Assembly: GCF_004366735.1 (NCBI RefSeq)
Contig: NZ_SOQX01000005.1
Coordinates: forward strand, 79,501 to 143,500
DNA length: 64,000 nt
Reading direction: 5' to 3'
Origin: Thiohalophilus thiocyanatoxydans
GTDB lineage: Bacteria; Pseudomonadota; Gammaproteobacteria; UBA6429; Thiohalophilaceae
Shown: positions 58,458 to 63,309 of the stretch, piece after piece
Numbering within the stretch: position 1 is the stretch's first letter
Layout: each line of letters opens with the position of its first letter
Notes under the pieces: generated by a model
What the model saw: the letters and a program-made list of their open reading frames with translations, nothing else
What the model was told of the DNA's origin: nothing
Database searches by the model: none
Translations under genes and position numbers: made by a program

Positions 58458-59276
58458 TTATTTTATACCGAATTCTCGCATCATCTCGGCATAATAGGCC
58501 TCGGCGCCTTCATGCATGAAATAATAATCCTTGAGATTGACCCGCTCCAGCATATATTGTAACCAGCGAACCTGCTTGCCCACTTCATCGTATACGAGCA
58601 GTGTCTTGCTCTCCTTTTTCGCCTTCTCGATATACTGCTCAAGTTTCTGCCGGTCGTCCAGGCTCGCCCAGCGCTCCACGCCCGGAAACAGTCCCGTTGC
58701 ACCACGCTGGTATTTATCACGTACATCAATAATCAGGCTTTGTGAATCCTGGCTGTTGGCTTCATGACTGAATTTGTCGGGATCCAGCAGATGCTGCTGA
58801 AATTTGTTACGGGAAATAATGTCTTCCGGCTTGACCGGACTTTTACCCAGCAACTCGGCATGCTCGGGGTACGCCTGGGCCCATTCGAACACCCCGGCAT
58901 CATAGGCGTAGGTATCGGTGATCCCCTCGCTGGCCGCCTTCTTTGCAGCAAGATAGGACTTCATACAAGTCCGCCCGTTACAATAGAAGACAATGGGCTT
59001 GTCGGTACGATCCCGCAGCGCCTTGATCTCCGCCTCGAAGGCATTGCCGGCAACCGGAATATTCACCGCGCCGCTAATCCGCAAGGTATCGAACTCCAGG
59101 CTGGACCGGGCGTCCACCACCGTGACCTCATCCAACCTCTCCAGCAGCTCGCTCTGCTCAATAACACTAATAGCGGGAAATTCGGCCCGGCCGGGAAACC
59201 CCTCGTCATCGGCATACACGGCTGAGATCCAGAGCAGCCCGCTCAGGGCGAAGATAAAGACACGTCGAAACATCAA
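58458..59276 (-). CDS. Exported tandem rhodanese-domain protein
   Basis: The 272-residue protein has a signal peptide (ends VYA-DD) and two rhodanese domains. The first has the active loop CNGRTCMKS with C99. In the second the matching position reads VYDEVGKQ, with no cysteine, so only the first is likely active. Periplasmic rhodaneses move sulfane sulfur, fitting the sulfur-oxidising context. It stands alone. Confidence 0.85.
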   Translation of the reverse strand: MMFRRVFIFALSGLLWISAVYADDEGFPGRAEFPAISVIEQSELLERLDEVTVVDARSSLEFDTLRISGAVNIPVAGNAFEAEIKALRDRTDKPIVFYCNGRTCMKSYLAAKKAASEGITDTYAYDAGVFEWAQAYPEHAELLGKSPVKPEDIISRNKFQQHLLDPDKFSHEANSQDSQSLIIDVRDKYQRGATGLFPGVERWASLDDRQKLEQYIEKAKKESKTLLVYDEVGKQVRWLQYMLERVNLKDYYFMHEGAEAYYAEMMREFGIK

Positions 59277-60880: not shown

Positions 60881-62305
60881 TCAGACTGCTTCCAGCGTAA
60901 ACCGGGTTACCTGATTCCGGCCGTTCGCCTTACTGGTGTACAACGCGTTGTCAGCGACTTCAATCACATCATGTTTTTCATAGCAGGAATTGCAGGTCGC
61001 CACCCCTACGCTGATAGTTACGTGAACTTCTCCGGCGGAGGTTGATACCGTTTTCTGTGAAATGGCGCAGCGCAGCCGCTCAGCCAGCACCTGGGCTCCC
61101 TCAGCGTCGGTTTCGGGCAATATCACCATAAACTCTTCACCTCCATAGCGCGCGGCAAGATCAATTTGGCGAATTTCACTCAATATGACTTCCCCGACAT
61201 GTCGTAACACCTTATCGCCGGCCTGATGACCGTAGTTGTCGTTGACTTGCTTGAAATGGTCAAGATCAAATAATAGCACTGACAGAGGGCGTTCGAAACG
61301 CCGCGCACGCTCAAGTTCGTTATCAAGCAGTGTTTGCATATACGCGTGATTAAACAAACCTGTCAGTCCATCCTGGTGCGACAGCTCAAAGAGTTCTTTC
61401 TCACGCAACAATGTTCGGATAATGGGACGTAGCGCGATTACCGATAGAAGAATAACAACCAGCAGCACTACTAACAGTATACCGATGAGAATTAGCAGCT
61501 GACGATCGATGTCGGCAAAAAAACGATCCCTGTTTACAACAGCATACAATTGCCAGTTGTGTCCTTCCACGTATCGGGATTTGACAATATGAGCCTCATC
61601 GACCTCTCCACTGTCAAGGTATGTTTCAAGAACATCGACTGTGATTACATTGTGGCCTCCGTGCGGCCAGTAGATGATCTCCCCATCTTTGACAATGGCA
61701 TAACAGCCCTGTTCATCCAGGGTCGATTCGACAATCTTTTCGATGCCGACATCATCCATCACCAGTATGTCTGCCCCGACCTTCCTTTCCCCTTTGTCGG
61801 CAATATTTGAGCAATACACTAAATATTCTTCATTCCCGACTTGCCTGCGCCCAAGCATACGGATTTCATCCAGTTCCCGGAGATTGCATTCGTTCACAAT
61901 ATGTTCGGGCAACGCCACCCCTACGGAAAACAGTAAATTACCGCCCGGGTCGAAGCGACTGATACCGACCGCCTCTCGATTTGCACCGAGGGCATCGGAA
62001 AGTTTGGGGGCGCTGAATGCAACAAGCTCTTCCTTGCTGACTTTCCCATCCAGATAGGCGATTTGCCTGTTGCGGATAGCCGTCCGGCTGGCACTCTGTC
62101 TTGCTAAATCGTAATGCTTGTCGAGCATACCCTGCAGCAACCAGAGCCCACCGTCGAGGTAATGGACGATTTCTTCCTCATGCTCCTCATGCAGGCGATC
62201 CACCAGCGGGCGGAAACCGAATAGATAGAAGGTGAGAATCAGTGTCAGGCCACTGACTACCATCACAAGGTATAATTTGGCGATATCCCGACGAAAATTT
62301 TCCAT
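60881..62305 (-). CDS. Membrane diguanylate cyclase with a periplasmic sensor
   Basis: The 474-residue protein has membrane helices at about 10-30 and 275-297 around a periplasmic Cache-like sensor of about 240 residues, then a GGDEF domain with YGGEEF and an I-site RQID five residues before it. It should make c-di-GMP with product inhibition in answer to a periplasmic signal. It converges on the PDC sensor gene. Confidence 0.88.
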   Translation of the reverse strand: MENFRRDIAKLYLVMVVSGLTLILTFYLFGFRPLVDRLHEEHEEEIVHYLDGGLWLLQGMLDKHYDLARQSASRTAIRNRQIAYLDGKVSKEELVAFSAPKLSDALGANREAVGISRFDPGGNLLFSVGVALPEHIVNECNLRELDEIRMLGRRQVGNEEYLVYCSNIADKGERKVGADILVMDDVGIEKIVESTLDEQGCYAIVKDGEIIYWPHGGHNVITVDVLETYLDSGEVDEAHIVKSRYVEGHNWQLYAVVNRDRFFADIDRQLLILIGILLVVLLVVILLSVIALRPIIRTLLREKELFELSHQDGLTGLFNHAYMQTLLDNELERARRFERPLSVLLFDLDHFKQVNDNYGHQAGDKVLRHVGEVILSEIRQIDLAARYGGEEFMVILPETDAEGAQVLAERLRCAISQKTVSTSAGEVHVTISVGVATCNSCYEKHDVIEVADNALYTSKANGRNQVTRFTLEAV

Positions 62306-62527: not shown

Positions 62528-62860
62528 TTACATATCATTGAGATAGGACTTGGCTTCTTCACCGGGATTGGGTAAACCCGCGATACGCCAGGCGTTGAGA
62601 CAGCTCTGAAACAGATCGTGAACCCAGAATTTGTCTTTCCCCAGCCGATGGCAGACGCTGTTCATGGCCGGCGCCACGCCAAACTTCTTGTAGTAATCCC
62701 GCAGACTGTAGATCACCAGCCAGTGGTCGTCTGTCAGCGGCGCCACTTTCAGTTGCTCCGCAATCGTGCTGGCCGTCTCTTCCGTCCACTGCGTCGGATC
62801 GACGATGAGGCCGGCTTCATCCATCTCCGGCAAATCTGTATTTTGTCTCACGGCGGTCAT
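62528..62860 (-). CDS. DsrC/TusE-family protein lacking both redox cysteines
   Basis: The 110-residue protein has the DsrC/TusE core (DEAGLIVDPTQWTEE, LTDDHWLVIYSLRDYYKKFG, MNSVCHRLGKDKF). In DsrC the final cysteine is next to last and another lies in CxIAGLP; here the first position reads W (AWRIAGLP) and the end is SYLNDM with no cysteine. Such forms have been set apart as regulatory DsrC-like proteins. I start at ATG 62860, preceded by AAGGAGGAACGT; the upstream ATG would add 15 residues. Confidence 0.85.
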   Translation of the reverse strand: MTAVRQNTDLPEMDEAGLIVDPTQWTEETASTIAEQLKVAPLTDDHWLVIYSLRDYYKKFGVAPAMNSVCHRLGKDKFWVHDLFQSCLNAWRIAGLPNPGEEAKSYLNDM

Positions 62861-63309
62861 ACGTTCCTCCTTGCGGTATTTACCGGGGAACTGTGTGGGC
62901 TTCATGATTCCGCTCTTGCTTCAAGTATAGACGACCACAACGTGAGTAAACGCGCAGACAAAAACATTTCCTGTGCAGGGATAACAACAACGGGACTGAC
63001 CGGTTTCAGCCCGTCAGTCGGGAATGGGCCGCACTGTTCACTTCCCGGGAAGGTCCCTTTCAGGCTGCAGCCATCGACAGCACAGCCGATCAGATGAATA
63101 GCGGGGCATACACGACTCCCGGCCGGATCCCGCCCCAGCAGCACAGCTAATCCGGCAACATTATTAAACATAGAGGGAGATAGACCATGGTACAGCCCAT
63201 CATCCTGTACAGCCGGTTACTGCTCGCACACGGCATGGCGTGGTGCTGTTGCCGGGTAAACCCTGATTCGCAAAAGCAGCGTAATCGACAGCAAAGCGGA
63301 CGATCGGGT
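62861..63309. other. Intergenic region without a supported gene
   Basis: These 449 bases lie between two minus-strand genes. A plus-strand frame from ATG 63187 has a GAGGGAG ribosome-like site but runs into the small exported gene on the other strand and is Arg/Pro-rich, so I do not call it. Confidence 0.45.

Follow-up and report, generated by a model that had tools for sequence, protein, structure and literature searches.

DsrC-like genes are often numerous in sulfur oxidisers, and one of them lies in a 64,000-nucleotide stretch of the Thiohalophilus thiocyanatoxydans genome (referred to as the window; C5:79501-143500 of a 202,649-base contig). Its product belongs to the DsrC family and has neither of the two catalytic cysteines, CysA and CysB. 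The features discussed are as follows, with residues counted from the start of the open reading frame.

62528..62860, minus strand: DsrC-family gene, an open reading frame of 110 amino acids plus stop, without CysA, with W91 at the CysB site, conserved C70 and C87, and the tail NPGEEAKSYLNDM
62866..62872, minus strand: Shine-Dalgarno sequence AAGGAGG, five bases 5' of the ATG at 62860
62651..62653, minus strand: Cys70 codon; cysteine in 80/82 clade members and in 0/64 other paralogue rows
62600..62602, minus strand: Cys87 codon; the residue opens a predicted helix (87-93) and precedes W91, at the CysB site, by four positions
62588..62590, minus strand: W91 codon, at the CysB site; tryptophan in 82/82 clade members
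62531..62560, minus strand: C-terminal arm, residues 101-110, with a predicted helix 101-109; the control model is the genome's own DsrC
60881-62305, minus strand: GGDEF protein, downstream of the gene
58458-59276, minus strand: double rhodanese protein (two rhodanese stretches), near the gene

The ATG at 62860 is favoured over the one at 62905 as the start codon because of the Shine-Dalgarno sequence in front of it. The earlier note had allowed that an assembly error at the 3' end might hide the true C-terminus; this is ruled out by the position of the gene in the middle of its contig, by the copy in the sister species (the only other genome of the genus), which is 95% identical across all 110 residues and has an identical stop, and by the recurrence of the tail in dozens of genomes, among relatives and in a genome scan. 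Comparison of the two species' copies gives a dN of 0.023 and a dS of 0.667 (NG86), or 0.028 and 0.531 (YN00); with a dN/dS of about 0.04 (0.035-0.05), the gene is under strong purifying selection, which speaks against a pseudogene. A scan for promoters and terminators returned nothing better than chance.

Family membership is clear. The protein passes the Pfam DsrC model PF04358 (67.8 bits, cut-off 24.9) and TIGR03342 (60.7 bits, cut-off 53.5), and fails the TusE equivalog PRK11508 (34.8 bits, cut-off 191). In structure comparison of its AlphaFold2 model (pLDDT 88.5), the best solved matches are 2v4j_C, 3or1_C and 3or2_C at Z 13.8, the first with an rmsd of 2.2 over 99 aligned residues; eight DsrC-family chains match at Z 10.4-13.8, and the next unrelated row stands at Z 4.4, unrelated folds under Z 5 not being taken as homology. 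On the profiles and the predicted fold, the gene is a real, conserved DsrC-family relative, and the DsrC core fold that the earlier note had recognised is borne out.

With DsrC (DsvC), the trisulfide-forming partner of DsrAB, the protein shares its fold, its Pfam and TIGR03342 membership and the AGLP motif. The likeness ends at the C-terminus, where, aligned to the canonical DsrC of this genome (...KQACKYAGLPKPTGCV), the protein has W91 at the CysB position and its arm, lacking the penultimate cysteine (CysA), continues instead as NPGEEAKSYLNDM. The double loss and the extended arm were correctly described before, as was their consequence: because the sequence has neither cysteine, no DsrC-type CysA-CysB trisulfide is possible. 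The alignment also leaves a 7-column gap, corresponding to a missing 7-residue loop. A 7-8 residue insertion is considered necessary for DsrC function (PMC4164917), and the missing loop is, on our reading of the alignment, probably this insertion. An N-terminal β-hairpin predicted for the genome's own DsrC is absent from the model, and the gene, on C5, is outside the dsr locus, canonical dsrC and dsrA being on C2. The protein thus lacks the arm cysteines and the dsr operon location of a true DsrC, and probably the insertion. TusE, a member of the tRNA 2-thiolation relay, belongs to the same superfamily and differs in having the penultimate cysteine. In having neither conserved C-terminal cysteine, the protein falls among the cysteine-lacking homologues.

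Such homologues were reportedly named RspA, in a regulatory sense, by Venceslau et al. 2014; RspA resembles the window protein in having no C-terminal cysteine. The same is true of phage DsrC proteins, five of which have neither cysteine motif according to PMC8190135, and others are described without the second cysteine and without the insertion (PMC4164917). DsrC has also been given a putative part in transcriptional regulation (PMC7787665, citing the Venceslau et al. 2014 review). DsrC homologues without one or both cysteines are thus already described. What probably sets the window clade apart from them is its own conserved C70 and C87 and its PGEEAKxY tail, for which no report was found in the full-text literature searched, mostly without subscription papers.

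The host genome has eight DsrC-family genes above the Pfam cut-off. Among them, the canonical DsrC follows dsrEFH-like genes (recognised by eye), L004 has both cysteines and a shorter body, L003 has CysB only, and five have neither CysA nor CysB (L002, L005, L006, the window gene and L008). Because a canonical DsrC is present in the same genome, the window gene does not replace it. L006 (L006:1474-1803, G000:C11) is a second paralogue of the window type, on a long branch, with C70 and C79 and no C87. Similar multiplicity is seen in nine relatives, with 6-9 DsrC-family matches each (tandem proteins counted twice), and in Allochromatium vinosum, another sulfur oxidiser, where PMC3368242 lists the TusE/DsrC/DsvC paralogues Alvin_0028, _0345, _0732 and _1508 beside DsrC; their transcripts respond differently on pyrite (PMC11267869).

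Several of these paralogues are distinct from the window type. L002 (L002:1489-1830, G000:C2:387587-387892) is a different cysteine-less protein with the tail AGLPESRRKGGY or close to it, and its orthologues (L144, L145, L155, L156 and L160-L163) lie, counting the host copy, 6.2-6.7 kb from dsrC in eight genomes; in one more, G005, the orthologue is 2.8 kb from dsrA. Of ten genomes examined, the nine that carry dsrA all have this type, and it was not found in the tenth, which has no dsrA; as a regulator or subunit of Dsr, this type is possibly a better candidate than the window gene. There are also tandem DsrC proteins with two domains, about 245 residues long (L137, L138, L146, L153, and also L029 and L031), in which the C-terminal domain ends in AGLPEPQGCID or close to it, with CysA and no CysB; wherever the N-terminal domain was read, it had neither cysteine. 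L005 and L008, together with the relatives L167, L172-L174, L177, L179 and L180, make up a group without CysA whose own tail ends around FG; L173, L174, L179 and L180 retain CysB, which the other members have lost.

A scan of 84,980 species genomes yielded 226 confirmed relatives of the window protein, the best 80 of which were analysed. In a 99-row tree of the paralogues of ten genomes, L018-L025 and 24 of the 80 scan loci picked by hand, the window type, including L006, forms a separate clade of 35 rows (SH-aLRT 100, stem 0.82), with the deeper order of the paralogues poorly resolved. By record names, most scan loci come from Gammaproteobacteria (Chromatiales, Thiotrichales, Acidiferrobacterales and a large number of unassigned metagenome-assembled genomes), with some Betaproteobacteria and one Alphaproteobacterium. 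Among IMG/VR viral contigs, none of 88 pattern matches was confirmed as a relative, and a phage origin was set aside.

The clade is associated with the Dsr pathway, without a strict need for it. dsrA scores above cut-off in 33 of 58 relatives, comprising 12/13 with the window type and 21/45 without it (Fisher p 0.004); within the window's own bacterial family alone the association is not significant (p 0.12). The 13 were scored by profile score and tail, and the copies in G005, G031 and G036 are broken or partial (in G005:C49, L026, and G036:C153, L027, broken or truncated). G019, a genome 99% complete, has the gene and no dsrA. Thirty of the 80 scan loci were picked by hand for a further check: dsrA is above cut-off in the genomes of 24, the match is weaker or partial in 2, and no dsrA was found in 4. 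Two of the 30, L049 and L056, seem to repeat the genomes G019 and G006.

Although the trisulfide is lost, the protein is not cysteine-less, a point that the earlier note had overlooked. C70 and C87 are both invariant in ten orthologues. An 82-row clade alignment was made up of the window protein, the sister-species copy, L006 and 79 of the 80 scan loci, leaving aside L121 (broken frame), L018-L027 and L028-L045 (some of L018-L025 share a genome with scan loci); in this alignment C70 is present in 80 rows, C87 in 73 and both together in 73. The scan patterns did not contain C70, and in the 70 loci matching only the AGLPNPGE pattern, which does not include C87, C70 occurs in 68 and C87 in 62. 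No cysteine is found at sites 70, 79 or 87 in any of 64 other DsrC-family rows drawn from ten genomes, with tandem proteins entered as two halves (site 70 being T, L, S, V, A, M, K or I), so the relocated cysteines are specific to the clade and not general to the DsrC fold.

All nine rows without C87 carry C79, which is also present in 8 of the 73 rows with C87 (raw Fisher p 8e-8); two of the nine, L116 and L119, also lack C70 and are the 2/82 without both C70 and C87. A tree built without the cysteine columns has two changes at C87, four at C79 and one at C70, too few for a statistical claim, and an independent-pairs test of the C79/C87 swap is not significant, so that the swap is a hint only. 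C87 and C79 each open a predicted helix, and cysteines at such N-cap positions are frequently reactive. For C70, a buried role in packing is possible.

The tail is conserved, as W91...NPGEEAKxY, with W91, E101 and E102 in 82/82 rows each, A103 in 81/82 and Y106 in 79/82. Conservation within residues 93-101 is partly selected because the main scan pattern covers them; W91, E102, A103 and Y106 fall outside it. AlphaFold2 predicts a helix over residues 101-109, whereas the last ten residues of the genome's own DsrC are coil in a control model built from 29 sequences.

The reading that we tentatively prefer, as somewhat short of an even chance, is that of a thiol-bearing accessory or sensory DsrC paralogue with relocated cysteines, sulfur- or redox-responsive and not a substrate of DsrAB. 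The protein belongs to a distinct orthologous clade of the DsrC fold that coexists with true DsrC, has lost the CysA/CysB trisulfide arm and has acquired other thiols, Cys70 and Cys87 (Cys79 in some lineages), with a predicted acidic helix in place of the flexible C-terminal coil. The relocated thiols could accept sulfane sulfur or pair in a disulfide, and this change would alter how the conserved surface of W91 and the tail binds its partner, either a regulator of transcription or a protein of sulfur transfer. We infer the reaction with sulfane sulfur or oxidant, and signalling through a partner, from the clade-specific cysteines, the co-occurrence with dsr and some linkage to a CysB-type regulator.

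In the main rival, possible though somewhat less likely, the protein would be a cysteine-independent regulator or binding decoy: its HTH-like core would attach to DNA, to a sulfur-transfer protein or to a LysR regulator, with the tail docking. The earlier note had moved from the missing trisulfide directly to such a role; the loss stands, and the implied absence of sulfur chemistry does not follow, given the conservation of C70 and C87. The retention of W91, E101, E102 and Y106 in the absence of the canonical cysteines speaks for this rival, as do weak fold matches of the model to LexA, TetR-type and sigma HTH domains, although at Z 2-4.4 these are in the range where the comparison tool warns of a merely common arrangement. 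Among the neighbour clusters of the 80 loci (with more than 1.15 kb of upstream sequence available in 77), there is no conserved operon partner and only LysR recurs widely: a divergent CysB-like LysR adjoins the gene in 16/80 loci, 54 to 140 bases away where measured. The one LysR tested scores best to CysB models, at 336 bits, below the cut-off of 436, and the LysR adjoining L091 is split across two frames. The regulator idea gains modest support from this, but 15 of the 16 linked loci are in one 30-row sister subclade and one is in the window's own 37-row clade, with no LysR beside the window gene itself; its own neighbours, encoding the GGDEF and double rhodanese proteins, an MFS protein and a FadL-like protein, do not recur among the neighbour clusters. 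A cysteine-independent role would also leave the near-invariant, clade-specific C70 and C87 unexplained.

A further proposal, a TusE-like sulfurtransferase in which C87 would carry the persulfide in place of CysB/CysA, for example from DsrEFH or TusBCD to a dedicated acceptor, is unlikely. C87 is one helical turn before the CysB site, and the dsrEFH-like genes precede dsrC at one host locus (by eye), but CysA, the residue persulfurated in DsrC according to PMC3397948, is missing, C87 is not universal in the clade and would sit on the protein body rather than on a swinging arm, and no tus or dsrE gene was seen by eye among the recurrent neighbour clusters of the 80 loci. A degenerate, non-functional DsrC copy, to which the loss of both catalytic cysteines and the broken or truncated copies in G005 and G036 might point, is highly improbable given the low dN/dS, a gene intact in most genomes, a deep conserved clade and the 226 relatives.

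Returning to the thiol-bearing accessory or sensory paralogue, a more specific and rather unlikely form of it would add another thiol architecture to the DsrC superfamily. In place of the cysteines on the swinging arm, two on the protein body, C70 and either C87 or C79, would lie beneath a helical lid and act as a sulfane-sulfur or redox switch. Next to true DsrC, this switch would report the sulfur load of the cytoplasm in sulfur oxidisers that carry dsr genes. For members of the window-type clade, annotation as DsrC or TusE, a common marker of sulfur oxidation, would be wrong, and the clade's own cysteines and tail make what had been a vague 'cysteine-less paralogue' testable by mutagenesis and mass spectrometry.
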